From the NCBI RefSeq assembly GCF_004403515.1, contig NZ_SOHH01000087.1, forward strand, positions 62,001-126,000: a stretch of 64,000 nucleotides of DNA, read 5' to 3'. Origin of the DNA: Cryobacterium fucosi. Lineage in GTDB: Bacteria; Actinomycetota; Actinomycetes; Actinomycetales; Microbacteriaceae. Of this stretch, positions 5,752 to 44,517 are shown piece by piece. Made by a program: the position numbers and the translations under genes. Each line of letters starts with the position of its first letter. Position 1 is the first letter of the stretch. Below the pieces are notes generated by a model that was not told the DNA's origin, made no database searches, and saw nothing but the letters and a program-made list of their open reading frames with translations.

Positions 5752-5904
5752 GGTGGTCGAGCCCGCCCGGTGGTCGAGCCGCCCCGGTGGTCGAGCCGCC
5801 CCGGTGGTCGAGCTCGTCGAGACCCCGCCCGGTGGTCGAGCGGCCCCGGTGGTCGAGCTCGTCGAGACCCCGCCCGCCCCGGTCTCTACGAGCTCGACCA
5901 CCGG
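5752..5904. repeat. Palindromic GGTGGTCGAG repeat array 1
   Basis: Three 17-bp direct units starting GGTGGTCGAGC (5752, 5769, 5786) lead into longer 22-bp units that end GTCGAGACC (from 5803 and again before 5880). The array closes with an inverted copy starting GGTCTCTACGAGC at 5881. It fills the space between the SDR start codon and the MFS stop codon. It belongs to the same family as the arrays at 12225, 32755 and inside ileS. Confidence 0.9.
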
Positions 5905-5969: not shown

Positions 5970-7553
5970 TCAGACCTTGAGCGGCTCCGGCTGATCGTCC
6001 AGCACCGGAAGCTCGATCGACGAGGTCGGCGGCTCATAGGTGTGGTCGAACGGCATCTCGTCGGTGTTCAGGCCGGGATTGTCGTCCTGGGTCGCGACGA
6101 GTTCGCGGGCCTCGAAGACCGAGTCCACGCTCGGCATCGACCCGAGCAGCGGCAGGCCTGCGGTCTCTCTCATGAAGAAGATCGCGATTCCGCCGATGAC
6201 GGATGTTCCCATCAGGTAGTACGCCGGCATCATGTCGTCGCCGGTGGCCGCGATCAGCGCCGCGATGATGAACGGCGTGGTGCCACCGAAAATCGCGACG
6301 GAGAAGTTGTACGCGATTCCCATCGCGCCATAGCGGCTCTTGGTCGGGAACAGCGCAGGAAGGGCGGAGGCGAGGTTGGAAACGTAGAAGGTGACGGGGA
6401 GGGCGATCAGTGCCAGGCCGAGAAGGGTCGACCAGATCTCGCCGGCTCCGATCAGCAGGAATGCCGGGATGGAGAGCACGATGGCCGTACCGGAGCCCAT
6501 CCAGAGCACCGGGCGGCGGCCGATCTTGTCGGAGAGCTTTCCGGTCAGCGGGATGCAGAGTGACATGATCACGAGGATCGGAATGGTCAGCAGGGTACCG
6601 TGCAGCTCGTCGTACCCCTTGGTGCTGGTGAGGTAGGTCGGCATGTACGAGGTGAGGGCGTAGCCGAGGGTGTTCGCGGCGGCGACGAGGATCATCGCGA
6701 CGATGATTCCGCGCCAATGCGCCTTGAAGATGCTCAAGGGGCCGTTGGATGCGGGTTCCTCGGTCGTCGTGGGATCGCTGGCGAGGGCATCCTTGGCATC
6801 CATGGTGGCCTGGAACGTGGGGGATTCCTCGATCTTCATCCGGAACCAGATCGCGATCAGGCCGAGCGGCCCGGCGATGAGGAACGGGATTCTCCAGCCC
6901 CAGTCCTCCATGACCGGCTGTCCCAGCGTGACCTGGAGCACCGACACGAGCGCGGCACCGATGGCAAAGCCGAGATAGCTGCCCATGTCAAGCAGGCTCG
7001 CGAAGAATCCGCGGTGCTTGTCGGGGGAGTGTTCGCTGACGAACGTGGTGGCGCCGGCGTACTCCCCACCGGTCGAGAAGCCCTGGATCAGCTTCGTGAA
7101 GACGAGAAGGGCCGCGGCGAGCATGCCGACCATGGCGTAGCTCGGGAGGAGGCCGACCGCGAAGGTGGAGGCGGCCATCAGCATCAGCGTCATCGACAGC
7201 ACCCTCTGGCGGCCGATCCTGTCGCCGAGCCAGCCGAAGAAGACACCACCGAGCGGGCGGGCGATGAACGTGGCGGCGAAGGTGCCGAGCAGGAACAGGG
7301 TCTGTACCGTCTTGTCGGCCTCCGGCAGGAAGACCGGGCCCATCGTCGTGATCAGGTAACCGAACACTCCGACGTCGTACCACTCCATCGTGTTACCGAC
7401 GATGGTTCCGCCGAGCGCCTTCTTCAGGCGGGGCTGGTCGACCACGTTGACGTGGGACACCTTCAAGCGGCGCTGAAGGAGGGGTTTTCTGGTCTGTCCG
7501 GAGGCGCTCCTGACGCCCTTTTTCATGTCGGTCATGCTGGGGTCTCTCGGCAT
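5970..7553 (-). CDS. MFS transporter, metabolite:H+ symporter (ProP/MHS) type
   Basis: 527 residues, with 12 predicted membrane helices in the usual MFS arrangement. The first helix motif GNTMEWYDVGVFGYL and the loop DRIGRQRVLSMTL between helices 2 and 3 are hallmarks of the MHS family, which includes proline/betaine, citrate and alpha-ketoglutarate symporters. QGFSTGGEYAGATTFVSEHS in helix 4 is also typical. A basic N-terminal extension of about 40 residues and an acidic C-terminal tail of about 60 residues are longer than in ProP. Substrate cannot be read from sequence; a compatible solute or organic acid is likely. It is a single gene with its own upstream region (7554-7776). Confidence 0.9.
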   Translation of the reverse strand: MPRDPSMTDMKKGVRSASGQTRKPLLQRRLKVSHVNVVDQPRLKKALGGTIVGNTMEWYDVGVFGYLITTMGPVFLPEADKTVQTLFLLGTFAATFIARPLGGVFFGWLGDRIGRQRVLSMTLMLMAASTFAVGLLPSYAMVGMLAAALLVFTKLIQGFSTGGEYAGATTFVSEHSPDKHRGFFASLLDMGSYLGFAIGAALVSVLQVTLGQPVMEDWGWRIPFLIAGPLGLIAIWFRMKIEESPTFQATMDAKDALASDPTTTEEPASNGPLSIFKAHWRGIIVAMILVAAANTLGYALTSYMPTYLTSTKGYDELHGTLLTIPILVIMSLCIPLTGKLSDKIGRRPVLWMGSGTAIVLSIPAFLLIGAGEIWSTLLGLALIALPVTFYVSNLASALPALFPTKSRYGAMGIAYNFSVAIFGGTTPFIIAALIAATGDDMMPAYYLMGTSVIGGIAIFFMRETAGLPLLGSMPSVDSVFEARELVATQDDNPGLNTDEMPFDHTYEPPTSSIELPVLDDQPEPLKV

Positions 7554-12224: not shown

Positions 12225-12375
12225 GGTGGTCGAGTGCGCGGTGGTCGAGCGCACGGTGGTCGAGCTCACGGTGGTCGAGCTCACGGTGGTCGAGCTCACG
12301 GTGGTCGAGCCTGTCGAGACCACGTCACGCGACCTGGTCTCGACAGGCTCGACCACCGGTTGCTCGACCACCGGG
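12225..12375. repeat. Palindromic GGTGGTCGAG repeat array 2
   Basis: Five consecutive 15-bp units built on CGGTGGTCGAG lead into one full 22-bp unit ending GTCGAGACC. After a 14-base spacer (ACGTCACGCGACCT) comes its exact inverted copy starting GGTCTCGACAGGC, then two short inverted units. The pair forms a 22-bp perfect stem, a possible bidirectional terminator between the amidohydrolase and the histidine kinase genes. Confidence 0.9.
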
Positions 12376-32754: not shown

Positions 32755-32943
32755 GGTGGTGGAGCCTGTCGGAACCGGCCGCCGCGGTCTCGACGGGCTC
32801 GACCACCGGGGTCTCGACGGGCTCGACCACCGGGGTCTCGACGGGCTCGACCACCGGGGCTCGGCCGCCGGGGTGTCGACGGGCTCGGCCACCGGGGCTC
32901 GACCGCCGGGGCTCGGCCGCCGGTGGTTGAGCCTGTCGAAACC
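32755..32943. repeat. Palindromic GGTGGTCGAG repeat array 3
   Basis: A copy ending GTCGGAACC (32755-32776) is followed by three head-to-tail 24-bp units starting GGTCTCGACGGGC (32786, 32810, 32834). Next come 14-bp short units (32858, 32896, 32910) around another 24-bp unit at 32872, and the array closes with TGGTTGAGCCTGTCGAAACC (32924-32943). Lies between the valS start and the ABC ATPase stop codon. Confidence 0.92.
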
Positions 32944-36603: not shown

Positions 36604-38252
36604 TCGGCGGGCAGCCAGGCGTCGTAGAACGTGGGAGTCGACACGGTCGGCATCGCGCGGGCGCCGGAGACTCGGGAGCTCAACAGGTAGTGGTTCTGCT
36701 GGTCGTAGAGCGGCAGGATGTAGAAGCCCTCCAGCACCTTGTTCTGCACCTCCGTGTACAGGCCGGTGCGCTTGTCGGCATCCGTCACCGCCCCGGCCTC
36801 GGTGAGCAGCGCGTCCACCTCGGGGTCGTTCACCTGCGCGTGGTTGGCGAAGTAGCCGCTGGGGGCGGGGACGATACCGGCGGAGTCGAAGAGGATGCGC
36901 AGCACGTCGGGGCCGACCTTGGTGTACGGGGCGCTGACGGCGTCGTAGCCGTTCTCGCCGAGCGCCGTGTACCAGCTGGAGAGGTCCATCGGGGTGAGCA
37001 CCACCTCGAAGCCGGTCTTCTTCGCTGTCGCCTGGATCTGCTCGAACAAGGACTGCTCGGCGGGGATGGACTGGTTCGTGCTGACCGGGAACTGGACGGT
37101 GAGGCGCGCGCCGTCCTTCATCCGGTAGCCGGCCGAGTCGCGGGCCGTCCAGCCGGCGGAGTCGAGCAGCTTGTCGGCGGCCTTGGCGTCGTAGCCGAAC
37201 AGGTCGGGTCGCTGGGCCGCGGTGGCCTCCACGCTGGAGAGTGCGGAGTATGACCGCTTGGCCGTGCCCTGGAAGAGGCTGGTGACGGCGTCGTCGACGT
37301 TGGCCGAGCGGATGAAGGCCTCCCGCACGATCGGGTCGTCGAACGGCGGCCGGGACGAGTTCAACTCGATCCGGTTCGAGGCGCCCGGCCGGGGCGCGTC
37401 GAGGTGGGTGATCGTGTCGCCTTTCTCCGCCTGCACGATCGTGTCGGGCTGGGCGTTGTCGATCACGTCGGCGTCACCGGCCTGCAGGGCCGCGAACCGC
37501 GATGCAGAGTCGGGGATGAACCGCCAGATGATCCTGGCCAGGTACGCCGGGCCGGTGTGATCCGCGTCGGCGGGCGGCGACGTGTACGCGGGGTTGCGCA
37601 CGAGCACGACCGAGTCCTGCTTCTCCCAGCTCTCGACCTGGAACGGGCCGGTGCCGACCGGGGCCACGCAATTCTCATCCAGGCCACGGGCCAGGCCGGT
37701 CGGGGATTCGATCGCCAGCCAGGGCTGGGTCAGCGATTCGAGGAGGGCGCTGTCCGGTTCGCCCAGGGTGAACCTCACCACGTTTGCCGAGACGGACTCG
37801 GTGCTCGTGACCTTGGCCAGCGCCAGGTAGCCGGTCGAGGAGCCCGTCTTCGGGTCCTGCAGGTGCGCGATGTTGGCCTGCACGGCGGCCGCGTCGAGCG
37901 GTGTCCCATCCGTGAATGTGACGCCGTCCTTGAGGGTGAACTCCCAGGCGAGTCCGTCGGGGCTTACCGTCCAGGACTTGGCCAGCCAGGGGATGATGGC
38001 GCCGTTGCCGTCCCGGGAGACCAGCGACTCCAGGTACTGCGTGCTCACCAGGGCCTGCGGGTAGTTGCCGCCGACGTGCGGGTCGAGGCAGGTGGGCTCG
38101 GCATCGCCGGAGGCGTAGGTGAGGGTGCCGCCCTTCACCGGGGTGGCGCCGTCGCCGGCTCCGGGAGTGGCGGCACACGAGGTGAGCAGGAGGCCGGCGG
38201 CCAGGACGGCCCCGATGGCGGCGGGGCGGTGTGAATGAACCGAGGAACGCAT
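36600..38252 (-). CDS. ABC transporter substrate-binding lipoprotein (family 5)
   Basis: 550 residues. Lipoprotein signal: basic head, hydrophobic AAIGAVLAAGLLL, lipobox LTSC with Cys near residue 26. Mature protein is a DppA/OppA-like binding protein (SBP_bac_5): CLDPHVGGNYPQALVSTQYL, LAKSWTVSPDGLAWEFTLKDGVTFTDG (quoted in two parts: LAKSWTVSPDGL and WEFTLKDGVTFTDG), and FIRSANVDDAV. Ligand could be peptides, nickel-chelates or other small molecules. First gene of the four-gene operon, start ATG at 38252 with AAAGAGA upstream. Divergent from the ileS T-box leader. Confidence 0.94.
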   Translation of the reverse strand: MRSSVHSHRPAAIGAVLAAGLLLTSCAATPGAGDGATPVKGGTLTYASGDAEPTCLDPHVGGNYPQALVSTQYLESLVSRDGNGAIIPWLAKSWTVSPDGLAWEFTLKDGVTFTDGTPLDAAAVQANIAHLQDPKTGSSTGYLALAKVTSTESVSANVVRFTLGEPDSALLESLTQPWLAIESPTGLARGLDENCVAPVGTGPFQVESWEKQDSVVLVRNPAYTSPPADADHTGPAYLARIIWRFIPDSASRFAALQAGDADVIDNAQPDTIVQAEKGDTITHLDAPRPGASNRIELNSSRPPFDDPIVREAFIRSANVDDAVTSLFQGTAKRSYSALSSVEATAAQRPDLFGYDAKAADKLLDSAGWTARDSAGYRMKDGARLTVQFPVSTNQSIPAEQSLFEQIQATAKKTGFEVVLTPMDLSSWYTALGENGYDAVSAPYTKVGPDVLRILFDSAGIVPAPSGYFANHAQVNDPEVDALLTEAGAVTDADKRTGLYTEVQNKVLEGFYILPLYDQQNHYLLSSRVSGARAMPTVSTPTFYDAWLPAE

Positions 38253-38386
38253 GAGGGGGATCTCTTTCCAGGGCAGGGGAACGGCCGAGTGTGCTGGTCG
38301 AGGAGCCGACCCGTGGTGGGCCGCCAGTGTCCCATCGTAAAACATCTGGTGGCGGCCGGGAATTCCACTCGGCGGATGCGGCAGGC

Positions 38387-38392
38387 TAGAAT
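38387..38392 (+). promoter_or_regulatory. Probable -10 element of ileS leader transcript
   Basis: TAGAAT places the transcription start near 38399, just before the T-box stem I. A TTCCAC at 38363-38368 is a poor -35 with 18-base spacing. Confidence 0.5.
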
Positions 38393-38397
38393 CGTCC

Positions 38398-38635
38398 ACG
38401 GATGACTACGATCCGGCCATCACCGGTGAGTCTTCGGAAGAACGGCCCCCCGGGGCCTGGTAGAACCGAACGGGTCGGGCCCGTCACAGCCTCTGAACAA
38501 GCGGTCGCCCGCTCACCCGGGCGGCAAGCGAGGTGGTACCGCGGCGGATCCCTTTCGGAGTCGGCGTCCTCGTGGAACAGGGCAGGCCTGCGTGACGCAG
38601 GAACCAGACAACTGCCCGACTCGTCCAGGAGAAGC
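38398..38635 (+). ncRNA. Translational T-box riboswitch, isoleucine type
   Basis: The leader has the actinobacterial ultrashort stem I layout. The specifier ATC (38419-38421) lies in the loop GGCCATCACCGG, followed by GTGAGTCTTCGGAAGAACGG. The nearly invariant T-box sequence GAGGTGGTACCGCGG is at 38530-38544. The downstream partner GTCCTCGTGG (about 38567-38576) lies before the Shine-Dalgarno AGGAGA at 38627-38632. Uncharged tRNA-Ile would pair at the specifier and T-box and free the ribosome-binding site. No terminator hairpin with a U-tract is present, so control is at translation. The 383 bases between the divergent SBP gene and ileS hold only this element and the promoters. Confidence 0.92.
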
Positions 38636-41600
38636 ATGACGTACCCCAAAGGTCAGCAATCAGGTTCGGCCGACCAGCAGCCCGGCTCCATCGTGCCGTC
38701 ACCGAACTTTCCCCAGCTCGAAACCGAGGTGCTCTCGTTCTGGAAGGACGACGCCACCTTCCAGGCGTCGATCGACAACCGGGAGGGCGCGCCCGAGTGG
38801 GTGTTCTATGACGGCCCACCGTTCGCCAACGGCCTGCCGCACTACGGCCACCTCCTGACCGGGTATGCGAAGGACCTGTTCCCGCGCTTCCAGACCATGC
38901 GCGGCAAGCAGGTGCACCGCCGGTTCGGCTGGGACACCCACGGGCTTCCGGCCGAGCTCGAGGCCGAGCGCGAGCTCGGCATCGTCGACAAGAGTGAGAT
39001 CGAGAAGATGGGCATCGGCGCCTTCAACGCCGTCGCGCGCAGCTCCGTGCTCAAATACACGAAGGTGTGGGAGGAGTACGTCACCCGCCAGGCCCGCTGG
39101 GTCGACTTCGATAACGACTACAAGACCCTCGACATCACCTTCATGGAGTCCGTGATCTGGGCCTTCAAGCGGTTGCACGACAAGGGCCTCGCCTACGAGG
39201 GCTATCGGGTGCTGCCGTACTGCTGGCGCGACCAGACCCCGCTGTCCAACCATGAACTGCGCATGGACGACGACGTCTACAAGATGCGCCAGGACCAGAC
39301 GGTCACGGTCACGTTCCCACTGGTCGGGGCGAAGGCGGAGGCGCTCGGCCTCACCGCCGTGCGCGCCCTCGCCTGGACGACGACCCCGTGGACCCTGCCG
39401 ACCAACCTCGCGCTCGCCGTCGGCCCGCAGATCGTCTACGCCGTCGTGCCGGCCGGACCGAACGGCACCCCGGATGCCACCGTCCTCCGCGAGGAGGCCG
39501 GCAGAGCGGATGCCGCGGCCGAGGTGCTCGGCGCCGAGTACCTGATCGCGATCGACCTCGTCGGCAACTACGCCAAGGACCTCGGTTACGAGTCCGCCGC
39601 GGACGCGACCGCGGCGATCGCCCGCACCGTGCTCGGCGGCGACCTCGAGGGCGTCTCCTACGACCGGCTCTTCGACTACTACGCGGACACCGCGGTGTGG
39701 GGCACCCGGAACGCCTGGACCATCGTCGTGGCGGACTACGTCACCACCGCGGACGGCACCGGGATCGTGCACCAGGCCCCCGCCTACGGCGAAGAGGACC
39801 AGAGGATCTGCGAGGCCGCCGGCATCCCGGTGATCATCTCCCTCGACGACGGCGGGAAGTTCCTGCCCGACGTGCCGGAGGTCGCCGGCCTGCTCTGGTC
39901 AGACGCGAACAAGCCGCTCACCCAACTGATCCGGGCCGAGGGCCGCCTGCTCCGCCAGGCCAGCTACGAGCACTCCTATCCGCACTGCTGGCGTTGCCGC
40001 AACCCCCTCATCTACAAGGCCGTCTCCAGCTGGTTCGTGCGGGTCACCGACTTCCGGGGCCGCATGGAGGTGCTCAACCAGGACATCAACTGGGTTCCGG
40101 AGAACGTCAAGGACGGCCAGTTCGGCAAGTGGATCGGCAACGCCCGCGACTGGTCGATCAGCCGCAACCGCTACTTCGGTTCGCCGATCCCGGTCTGGAA
40201 GAGCGACAACCCCGACTACCCGCGGATCGACGTCTACGGTTCCCTCGACGAACTCGAGGCCGACTTCGGCGTGCGCCCCACCGACCTGCACCGCCCGTAC
40301 ATCGACGAACTCACCCGGCCGAACCCCGACGACCCGACCGGGCAGTCCACCATGCGGCGCATCACGGATGTGCTCGACGTCTGGTTCGACTCCGGCTCGA
40401 TGCCCTTCGCCCAGGTGCACTACCCGTTCGAGAACCGGGACTGGTTCGACAGCCACAACCCGGCCGACTTCATCGTCGAATACATCGGGCAGACCCGCGG
40501 CTGGTTCTACATGCTGCACGTGCTCGGGGCCGCCCTGTTCGACCGCCCGGCCTTCAAGAACGTCGTCAGCCACGGCATCGTGCTCGGCAGCGACGGGCAG
40601 AAGATGTCGAAGTCGCTGCGCAACTACCCCGACGTGAACGAGGTGTTCGACCGGGACGGGTCGGATGCGATGCGCTGGTTCCTGATGAGCTCCTCCGTGC
40701 TGCGCGGCGGCAACCTCATCGTGACGGAGGAAGGCATCCGCGAGGGCGCCCGCCAGGTGATGCTCCCGCTGTGGAGCACCTGGTACTTCTTCTCCCTCTA
40801 CGCCAACGCGTCGGGCGAGAACGGCTACGACGCGAGCTGGCGCACCGACTCCACCGACGTGCTCGACCGCTACCTTCTGGCCAAGACCCGCGCCCTGATC
40901 GTGGACGTCACCGCCGACCTCGAAAACCTGGACAGCACCCTGGCCTCCGCGCGGCTCCGGGACTTCGCCGACGTGCTCACCAACTGGTATGTGCGCCGGT
41001 CCCGCGACCGGTTCTGGGTCGGAGCGACCGGGGTCTCGACAAGCTCGACCACCGGGACGGGCTCGACCATCGGGGTCTCGACAGGCTCGACCACCGGGGT
41101 CTCGACAGGCTCGACCACCGGGACAGGCTCGACCACCGGGGTCTCGACAGGCTCGACCACCGGGCCGGTGGTCGAGCCTGTCGAGACCACACCCGGGTTG
41201 CCCACCGGTCCCGTCGACCACACCGAGGCCTTCGACACCCTGTACACCGTGCTCGAAACCGTCGCCCGGGTGGCCGCGCCGCTTCTTCCGCTCGTCACCG
41301 AGCGCATCTGGCAGGGACTCACCGGCGGGCGAAGCGTGCACCTGGCGGACTGGCCCGACCCGGAGCTCTTCCCCGACGACGACGTGCTCGTCGCCGCCAT
41401 GGACCAGGTGCGCACCATCAGTTCCACCGTGCTCTCCCTGCGCAAGCAGGCCGGGCTGCGCGTGCGCCTGCCGCTGGCGAACCTGACCGTGGTCACCACC
41501 GACACGGCGGCGATGGCACCGTTCGAGGCCATCCTGCGCGACGAGCTCAACGTCAAGAACGTGTCCCTGGTGGAGCTCGCCGCCGGCAGCGCCACCGCCT

Positions 41601-42253
41601 ACGGGGTCACCTCCCGGCTCAACGTCAACGCCCGGGCCGCCGGCCCGCGCCTCGGCAAGCAGGTGCAACAGGTGATCAAGGCCGCCCGCGCCGGCGACTG
41701 GATCGAGACCGACGGCGTCGTCACCGCCGGCGGGATCGAACTCGCCCAGGGGGAGTACGAGCTGGTGCTGCAGGCCGGCGGCCAGACTGCCGGCGCAGGA
41801 CAGGGCGCCGAGTCCGGCGACACGACCGCCCTCGCCCTGCTGCAAGGCGGCGGTTTCGTGCTGCTCGACACGACGACGACGGCCGAGCTCGAGGCCGAGG
41901 GCTTCGCCAGGGACCTGATCCGGGCAGTGCAGGACACCCGCAAGTCCGCCGGATTCGAGGTGAGCGATCGCATCCGCCTCGACCTGGTCTTCTTCGCCGA
42001 CGCGGACGCGGCCACCTTCGCCCTCGCCGTCGGGGTCGATGTGCCGGCCGAAACCCTCACCACCCGCTTCGCCACCCACCGTGCGAGCGACGCCGACGCC
42101 CAGCTGCTGGCGACGACCCTGCCGTCGGAGTGGCTCGGCGACCTGGTCGGTGCGCCGGTCGAACACTACGTGCGCTTCGAAGCGGGGCAGTACGCGAACC
42201 AGGGTGCCGTGCTGGTCGCCGTCGCCAGAGAGAACGGACTCATCCATGTCTAA
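38636..42253 (+). CDS. ileS: Isoleucine-tRNA ligase (type 2) with in-frame repeat insertion
   Basis: 1205 residues, about 100 longer than usual. Class I synthetase of the eukaryote-like, typically mupirocin-insensitive group: HIGH motif as [14 protein letters not shown] near residue 70, editing domain with [17 protein letters not shown] as [13 protein letters not shown] near residue 660. Between [12 protein letters not shown] and [14 protein letters not shown] in the anticodon-binding domain there is a low-complexity stretch of about 53 residues (about 799-851) made of VSTGSTTG units, encoded by the palindromic repeat family. Translation is controlled by the T-box upstream; folC overlaps the 3' end by eight bases. 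Confidence 0.97.
41032..41188 (+). repeat. Palindromic repeat array 4, inside ileS
   Basis: Four 24-bp units starting GGTCTCGACA (41032, 41074, 41098, 41140), two 18-bp units (41056, 41122), a three-base spacer and one inverted 22-bp copy (41167-41188). All direct units are multiples of three and encode GVSTGSTT or GTGSTT. The inverted copy encodes PVVEPVET. Confidence 0.96.
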
Positions 42254-43622
42254 GTCCAGCCCCCAAGCCGACGACGCCGGGCGGAGCGCCGGCGACGCCG
42301 TGTTCGCCGCGCTGCTCGCCCGCGTCGGCGAAGGCTCCCCGCGGCCCCGCCTCGAACCGACCAGGCGGGCCCTCGAACTTCTCGGCGACCCGCAGACCGT
42401 GTACCCGATCATCCACATCACCGGTACCAACGGCAAGACCAGCACCAGCCGGATCGCCGAGAGCCTGCTCCGCGCCTACGGTCTGCGCACCGGCCTGCTG
42501 ATCAGCCCGCACCTCGTGCGGCTCAACGAACGCATCGTGATCGACGGTGAGTCGATCGACGACGAGGCCCTCGCCGCGAACTGGGACGACATCGCCCCGT
42601 ACCTGCGGATGGTCGACGACGAACTCACCGCCGCCGGCGACGAACCGCTGACCTTCTTCGAGGCGCTCACTGTTCTCGCGTTCGCCTGCTTCGCCGACGC
42701 CCCCGTCGACGTCGCGGTGATCGAGGTAGGGATGGGCGGCGAGTGGGACTCCACGAACGTCGCCGACGGGCAGGTCGCCGTGATCACGCCGATCGCGCTG
42801 GACCACACGAGACGCCTCGGCGACACCATCGCGGAGATCGCCCGCACCAAGTCCGGGATCATCAAGCCCGCGGCATCCGTCGTCACGGCGAAGCAGGCCG
42901 AGCCGGCGCAGGCCGAGCTCGAACGCGCCGTCGAACTGACCGAGTCGACCCTGGCCAGTGAGGGCGAGGACTTCGCCCTGCTCGCCAGCCAGGTCGCCGT
43001 CGGCGGGCAGCTCATCTCGGTGCGCGGCCTCGCCGGCACCTACCCGGACCTGTTCCTGCCGCTCTACGGAACCCACCAGGCGCAGAACGCGGCTGTCGCG
43101 ATCGCCGCCGTGGAATCGTTCCTCGGCGCCGGCAGCCAGGAACTGGCCTACGACCTCGTCGAGGAAGGCCTCGCCTCCGCCACCTCGCCCGGGCGGCTGC
43201 AGTTGGTCGGCATCGACCCGACCGTGCTGGTGGATGCCGCGCACAACCCGCACGGCGCGGCCGCCCTGGCCGCGGCGCTGGTCGCCTACTTCGACTTCGA
43301 CGAGATCGTCGCCGTGGTCGGCATCCTCGCCGACAAGGATGCCGCCGGGATCATCGCTGCGCTCGAGCCCGTCGTCGCCCGCTTCCACGTCACCGCGTCG
43401 CATTCCGAGCGGGCCATCCCCGTCGACGACCTCGCCGACCTGGTGGCGCGCACGGCCGGGGATGACTCCACCATCCGGTTCGACGACCTCGCCCAGGCCC
43501 TCGAATCCGCCAGGGACTGGGCCGAGGAGTCCCCGCGGCGCGCGGTCATCGTCACCGGCTCGATCACCCTCGTCGGCGAGGCGATCGCCCTGGCCGACGC
43601 GCGGGAATGGCTGAAGAAGTGA
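42246..43622 (+). CDS. folC: Dihydrofolate synthase / folylpolyglutamate synthase
   Basis: 458 residues, Mur-ligase fold. Adds glutamate to dihydropteroate and to folates. P-loop [18 protein letters not shown] near residue 60, omega-like loop [13 protein letters not shown], and central [14 protein letters not shown] containing the catalytic Glu and the metal-binding region. C-terminal domain with [20 protein letters not shown] at 42246 overlaps the end of ileS by eight bases, so translation is coupled to isoleucine-tRNA status through the ileS leader (inference). Confidence 0.96.
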
Positions 43623-43957
43623 GCCAACGCTCGGTGAAACGGTCCCTGGCCTCGATCGTGCTGGGCTTCGAGATCGTCGTCGTCCTCCTCGCCGCGCTGG
43701 TCATCTTCGGGCTCGGCGCCCTGCCGGCCTGGCTCGCGCTCGGCGGGGGAGCGTTGCTCTGCCTGGCGATGGTCGCGGTCATCGGACTGCTCGGCCCGGG
43801 CTGGTCGTACTACGCCGGCTGGGGCATTCAGGCCATCGTCCTCGCCACCGGATTCCTCAACCCCACGATGTTTTTCGTTGGCGCAATGTTTGCCGCCATG
43901 TGGACGTACTGCATGGTCGTCGGCACCAGAATAGACAACCAGAAGGAGAGCTCATGA
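43607..43957 (+). CDS. DUF4233 membrane protein
   Basis: 116 residues with four hydrophobic segments (about 14-36, 41-62, 66-85 and 88-106). N-terminal RSVKRSLASIVLGFEIVVV is characteristic of DUF4233, found next to folC and ndk throughout actinobacteria. Role unknown. Two starts are possible: ATG at 43607, overlapping folC by 16 bases, or GTG at 43619 giving a GTGA overlap. Its stop codon overlaps the ndk start (ATGA). Confidence 0.9.
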   Translation: MAEEVSQRSVKRSLASIVLGFEIVVVLLAALVIFGLGALPAWLALGGGALLCLAMVAVIGLLGPGWSYYAGWGIQAIVLATGFLNPTMFFVGAMFAAMWTYCMVVGTRIDNQKESS

Positions 43958-44376
43958 GCACCCAGATCGAAGAAACCCTTGTATTGGTCAAGCCGGATGG
44001 CGTCGCCCGCAACCTGTCCGGCGAGATCCTGCGCCGGATCGAGGCGAAGGGCTACTCCCTCGTCGACGTGAAGCTGGTCGAACCCGACCGGTCGCTGCTC
44101 GTGGAGCACTACGCCGAACACGAGGGCAAGCCGTTCTTCGAGCCCCTCGTCGAGTTCATGGAAAGCGGCGCCATCCTCGCGCTCCGGATCGCCGGCGAAC
44201 GCGTGATCGACGGCTTCCGCGCCCTCGCCGGAACGACCGACCCGACGACAGCGGCACCCGGCACCATCCGCGGCGACCTCGGCCGCGACTGGGGCGGAAA
44301 GGTGCAGCAGAACCTCGTGCACGGCTCCGACTCGGCCGAGTCCGCCGCCCGCGAGCTGGCCCTCTGGTTCGACTGA
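43954..44376 (+). CDS. ndk: Nucleoside diphosphate kinase
   Basis: 140 residues, the usual size. Transfers the gamma-phosphate of ATP to nucleoside diphosphates. N-terminal ETLVLVKPDGVARNL with the conserved Lys, ATP-site Arg residues in GTIRGDLGRD, and catalytic His in NLVHGSDS near the C-terminus. ATG overlaps the DUF4233 stop codon and has AAGGAGAG upstream, so it can also be translated on its own. Last gene of the ileS-folC-DUF4233-ndk chain. Confidence 0.97.
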   Translation: MSTQIEETLVLVKPDGVARNLSGEILRRIEAKGYSLVDVKLVEPDRSLLVEHYAEHEGKPFFEPLVEFMESGAILALRIAGERVIDGFRALAGTTDPTTAAPGTIRGDLGRDWGGKVQQNLVHGSDSAESAARELALWFD

Positions 44377-44480
44377 ACGTTCGGCGCTACTCCAGGTCTG
44401 AGGCCTGCTCGCCCTCCGTGCTGCGGCTCGGTTCGCCGCCGTATTGCCCGCGCGGGGTGGCGGCGGGTGCTGCCCCAGGC

Positions 44481-44517
44481 GAGGCAGGGCAGCGGTGGTG
44501 AGGCAGGGCAGCGGTGG
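44481..44517. repeat. 19-bp direct repeat, two copies
   Basis: GAGGCAGGGCAGCGGTGGT at 44481-44499 is repeated directly at 44500-44517 (last base differs) between ndk and the VKOR gene, just beyond the VKOR stop codon. Confidence 0.8.

Follow-up and report, generated by a model that had tools for sequence, protein, structure and literature searches.

Translational T-boxes were reportedly described upstream of actinobacterial ileS by Sherwood et al. in 2015. T-boxes that sequester the Shine-Dalgarno (SD) sequence of actinobacterial ileS genes were reported in 2005, in a genome set that includes Leifsonia xyli, a member of the same family as Cryobacterium, and the mechanism in which uncharged tRNA-Ile stabilises the antisequestrator and thereby frees the SD goes back as a proposal to that year (PMC1262725), with later studies by others. 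Class III T-boxes are defined by a short Stem I without elbow module, a specifier placed in an apical loop of five or six nucleotides and a required Stem II (PMC10482949), and they have been studied by crystallography and single-molecule work (PMC10482949, PMC10651847, PMC7583486). TBDB holds a separate covariance model (class II) for translational T-boxes (PMC7778990).

We analysed a 64,000-nucleotide stretch of the Cryobacterium fucosi genome, referred to here as the window. Comparison and modelling indicate that positions 38398–38635, the 5' leader of the ileS mRNA, are very probably (probability about 0.93) a Class III (ultrashort Stem I) translational T-box riboswitch for tRNA-Ile(GAU). 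A sequence-only reading had proposed such an element before ileS, and it was borne out by a conserved architecture, covariation, a matching tRNA, a predicted sequestrator that is mutually exclusive with the antisequestrator fold and the lack of a terminator.

Like the Nocardia farcinica ileS Class III T-box (PDB 6UFM; PMC10482949, PMC10651847), the Cryobacterium element has a short Stem I without elbow-binding module and a hexanucleotide specifier loop. The two also share a Stem II, tRNA-Ile, the gene ileS and an SD-sequestering output, which is predicted here; for the K-turn, the S-turn of Stem II and the IIA/B pseudoknot of the Nocardia element, the Cryobacterium leader has candidate counterparts, the first two as sequence motifs. 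They differ in sequence detail, in an accessory sequestrator-loop hairpin present in part of Cryobacterium and in the downstream genes folC-DUF4233-ndk. As in the ileS T-boxes of 2005 (PMC1262725), a hairpin predicted to sequester the ileS SD replaces the terminator. The element resembles Rfam RF00230 and TBDB class I in its T-box sequence, UGGN bulge and antiterminator-like A1/A2, but, unlike these, it has neither the long Stem I nor the elbow module. Within this known family of actinobacterial T-boxes it is an ordinary case, found in another species and in no way different in kind.

Detection and covariation of the leader

The ileS leader was carried by all related genomes searched (60/60), and the closest named ileS matches came from Cryobacterium species. 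We built a covariance model from 30 leaders of the genus Cryobacterium only and applied it to 80 named ileS loci picked by protein similarity. This search, which the sequence-only reading had put forward as a check, placed a T-box directly 5' of ileS in 78 of the 80 loci, with E 1e-18 or better. Neither of the other two gave a T-box match. At one (L100), the contig begins 79 nt before ileS. At the other (L108, a Microbacteriaceae MAG), no motif was found upstream of ileS at 7001 and folC, DUF4233 and ndk still follow; a natural loss of the T-box is probable there. The model further matched 82 of 296 genomes drawn across the phylum, and in the C. fucosi genome it detected one ileS T-box element only. 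A contig labelled Stenotrophomonas maltophilia (L119) carries a Microbacterium-like ileS with a T-box, which is probably a contamination of the record.

The 78 leaders from named loci and the window's own were combined in a 79-sequence alignment. In this alignment 94.9% of cells were paired, and 23 of 38 pairs had changed on both sides, with covariation in Stems I, II, III, A1 and A3. The observed covariation was reached by none of 500 shuffles, and every slid control scored far lower. Because the alignment was fitted to the covariance model, the structure is somewhat favoured in these counts; the T-box structure is nonetheless secure, since the slid controls are far lower and Stem III and A3 show many pair types.

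Rfam RF00230 gave no T-box match in the window, in a 601-base region (even at E 10) or in the whole genome, and its gathering threshold was not reached, so that the element would escape routine annotation. The sole sub-threshold Rfam match, c-di-GMP-II-GCG, lay on the wrong strand with 16 bits and was rejected as chance. Plain folding of the whole leader was uninformative (z = 0.29).

Architecture and the matching tRNA

A TANNNT sequence preceded the model start by no more than 30 nt in 79/79 loci, in nearly all of them by 12–14 nt, compared with 0 in a control segment 100–130 nt upstream. As this putative -10 element stands at a nearly fixed distance before the T-box, the RNA probably begins at about 38398–38400, at Stem I itself. 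The features of the leader up to the antisequestrator are as follows.

38387–38392, + strand: putative -10 element TAGAAT, fitting the TANNNT pattern across relatives
38404–38432, + strand: ultrashort Stem I, 29 nt; base 38404–38406/38430–38432 (3 bp), with covarying pairs
38410–38411/38428–38429, + strand: tandem GA of Stem I, following a 3-nt bulge; a K-turn-like sequence pattern
38413–38416/38423–38426, + strand: Stem I apical helix, 4 bp
38417–38422, + strand: Stem I hexaloop CCAUCA, closed by the apical helix
38419–38421, + strand: specifier AUC (Ile)
38433–38470, + strand: Stem II; covarying base helix 38433–38437/38466–38470, 99.7% paired, and variable top
38438–38442/38461–38465, + strand: S-turn-like purine-rich internal loop AAGAA/UAGAA of Stem II, a motif match
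38471–38474/38480–38483, + strand: Stem IIA, within the IIA/IIB element 38471–38491; pairing supported in the 79-leader alignment
38478–38479/38490–38491, + strand: possible IIB pseudoknot; its pairs are invariant in the genus and so give no independent test
38504–38525, + strand: Stem III; 6/6 counted pairs changed on both sides
38526–38573, + strand: antisequestrator; A1 38528–38533/38568–38573, A2 38541–38543/38565–38567, A3 38545–38550/38558–38563
38534–38540, + strand: T-box bulge UGGUACC

At the Stem I base, pairs 1–2 of helix 1 show GC/AU covariation. Three bases of the K-turn-like pattern (G38410, A38411 and A38429) each occur in 79/79 leaders and the fourth, G38428, in 74/79. The specifier, correctly read as ATC, lies in the apical loop (5–6 nt) of a short Stem I that has no elbow module, as expected of Class III; its three invariant bases and the A that follows are each found in 79/79 leaders. 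The C. fucosi genome encodes a tRNA-Ile with anticodon GAU and discriminator base A, and the AUC specifier fits both this tRNA and the downstream gene.

The T-box sequence GAGGTGGTACCGCGG was likewise present, at 38530–38544. Its UGGU bulge occurs in 78/79 leaders, with A1 and A2 paired, which agrees with the UGGN bulge of Class III. The ACCA end of tRNA-Ile, made up of the discriminator A and the CCA added after transcription, is complementary to this UGGU. One ileS T-box, in an Actinomycetota MAG (L125, 6737–6960), has a UGGC bulge instead; to match it, the tRNA-Ile of that genome would need G as its discriminator base.

Predicted switching at the Shine-Dalgarno sequence

Downstream of the T-box, where the SD had been proposed to lie, AGGAG precedes the ileS ATG at 38636. 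The following features are involved in its predicted masking.

38569–38631, + strand: predicted sequestrator (OFF state), masking the SD; CUC 38569–38571 with GAG 38629–38631, UGGA 38573–38576 with UCCA 38624–38627
38627–38631, + strand: SD AGGAG of ileS
38580–38617, + strand: accessory hairpin in the sequestrator loop, a predicted fold; 38580–38585/38612–38617, inner stem 38587–38592/38596–38601

When the discriminator was folded alone, SD bases 38627 and 38629–38631 paired with the A1 3' strand (38569–38571 and 38573) with a probability of about 0.9 or more. Antisequestrator and sequestrator are mutually exclusive because both need the A1 3' strand (38568–38573). An SD-masking sequestrator of this kind, supported by predicted folds and comparison, together with the absence of a terminator, agrees with Class III. 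In an energy model that ignores tertiary contacts and pseudoknots, forcing the antisequestrator cost 6.4 kcal/mol, and mean SD accessibility rose from 0.34 to 0.64; such modelled values are expected of a switch whose default state is OFF and which uncharged tRNA turns ON. Across relatives, the ON/OFF difference in SD accessibility was in the right direction in 61/77 but modest, exceeding 0.3 in only 22.

Comparison between species also points to pairing of the A1 3' strand with the SD region. Over 77 loci, the cognate duplexes had a mean energy of -10.8 kcal/mol versus -9.25 kcal/mol for swapped ones, a difference reached by 0/10000 permutations, with shared ancestry not removed. The SD region of many Microbacterium species, UGCGAGA, nearly duplicates the A1 5' strand, as competition of the two for one partner would predict. 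Only some Cryobacterium leaders, among them that of the window, have the accessory hairpin; in these, switch and start are 54–69 nt apart, compared with 19–46 nt in most others. Another candidate OFF-state pairing, GAGUCGG 38558–38564 with CCGACUC 38616–38622 (7 bp, perfect in the window), was rejected because it crosses the sequestrator, occurs in close relatives only and scores within a species no higher than between species (4.2 versus 4.14 of 7).

By analogy with the studied relatives, the leader would bind tRNA, discriminate its charging state and control translation. With charged tRNA or none, the A1 3' strand (CUCGUGGA) would pair with the SD region (UCCAGGAG) and block initiation. Uncharged tRNA-Ile would dock at two sites: its anticodon would contact AUC, between Stems I and II, and its ACCA end the UGGU bulge. 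The docked tRNA would stabilise the antisequestrator, the A1 3' strand would be withdrawn from the SD and IleRS would be translated.

The same T-box could in principle act on transcription, either through an intrinsic terminator or, after a block of ileS translation, through Rho. In GC-rich actinobacteria, mRNA whose translation is blocked can become accessible to Rho, and in that case the folC-ndk mRNA could drop too. However, the leader contains no hairpin with a T run resembling a terminator (0 intrinsic terminators in 38200–38750 versus 0.4 expected in shuffles, which upholds the earlier claim that none is present), and the A1 3' strand prefers its own SD region over any terminator arm; we regard a transcriptional output as quite improbable. 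The idea that a longer IleRS has its N-terminal part encoded in the conserved region, which would then not be leader RNA, draws on an ORF (38402–42253) that is open in this genome from ATG 38402, with no stop before ileS. Yet 62/79 relatives have an in-frame stop between T-box and ileS, only 9/79 have the ATG of 38402, conservation tracks RNA pairing and a conserved SD precedes ATG 38636. The stops and the rarity of the ATG led us to reject this ORF as a coding extension of ileS, and we give a longer IleRS practically no credence.

The ileS gene and its downstream neighbours

The following genes stand behind the T-box.

38636–42253, + strand: ileS, isoleucyl-tRNA synthetase (TIGR00392, 774 bits versus a cut-off of 621); stop TAA 42251–42253
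42246–43622, + strand: folC (TIGR01499, 345 bits); ATG 42246 overlaps ileS by 8 nt; weak SD CGGAC 42235–42239
43607–43957, + strand: DUF4233 small protein (PF14017); start ATG 43607 or GTG 43619, overlapping folC by 16 or 4 nt
43954–44376, + strand: ndk (NF001908); 4-nt overlap with the DUF4233 gene; own strong SD AAGGAG 43943–43948

Clustered copies of a short, palindromic interspersed repeat (core GGTCGAGCCTGTCGAGACC) are inserted in frame within ileS at 41032–41188 of the window. They give rise to a low-complexity linker of about 60 residues (STGSTTG...VVEPVET); the linker is short in most relatives. The genome holds 582 copies of the repeat at up to 2 mismatches, compared with 0 for a reversed control; more copies occur in the window at 5806–5851, 12303–12336 and 32786–32925, and the ileS genes of two other Cryobacterium (L062 and L063) each carry a single copy at a comparable position. 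The ileS start is apparently TTG in a large part of Cryobacterium (L012–L019 and others) and ATG or GTG in the rest of the genus; a TTG start may lower the basal output of the T-box gene.

The overlaps between the four genes are those that had been claimed. They recur in relatives at ileS/folC (76/80) and folC/DUF4233 (73/76), and at ndk in 24/76, and the gene order ileS-folC-DUF4233-ndk extends to further families of this taxonomic order. In the more distant actinobacterial T-box carriers sampled, folC was not found beside ileS, and a literature search returned nothing that links folC with ileS and the T-box.

The sequence-only reading had also suggested that tRNA-Ile charging could influence the folC-ndk genes by translational coupling, a proposal that is half supported. 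Through overlapping starts or polarity, folC-DUF4233-ndk may partly follow ileS. Judged by overlaps and SD strength, such coupling is a conjecture that is plausible for folC and less so for ndk, because the folC SD is weak and the ndk SD strong. In a wider form of this idea, the T-box of Microbacteriaceae and of the order's other families might govern how much is made from all four overlapping genes as one unit, with tRNA-Ile charging tuning folate polyglutamylation and nucleotide balance via termination-reinitiation or polarity; we put this forward tentatively, at somewhat worse than even odds. That the T-box affects ileS alone, the three other genes being made independently, has about an even chance. 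The strong SD of ndk speaks for independence, as does the T-box-ileS unit without adjoining folC in other actinobacterial families; the frequent start/stop overlaps and the absence of any promoter-like site in 41500–44500, in a scan that is weak for this phylum, speak against it. The sequence-only reading had held that a strong start of its own would tell against coupling: here folC has only CGGAC, whereas many relatives have a good folC SD.

Our analysis confirms that a genome whose ileS T-box goes unseen in Rfam-based annotation carries this well-understood tRNA sensor, and it assigns the predicted ON and OFF pairings base by base. The many short Stem I variants provide a natural data set on the limits of trimming or extending a T-box switch. 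If the coupling is true, the effects of isoleucine starvation would extend to folate and nucleotide metabolism in one actinobacterial order.
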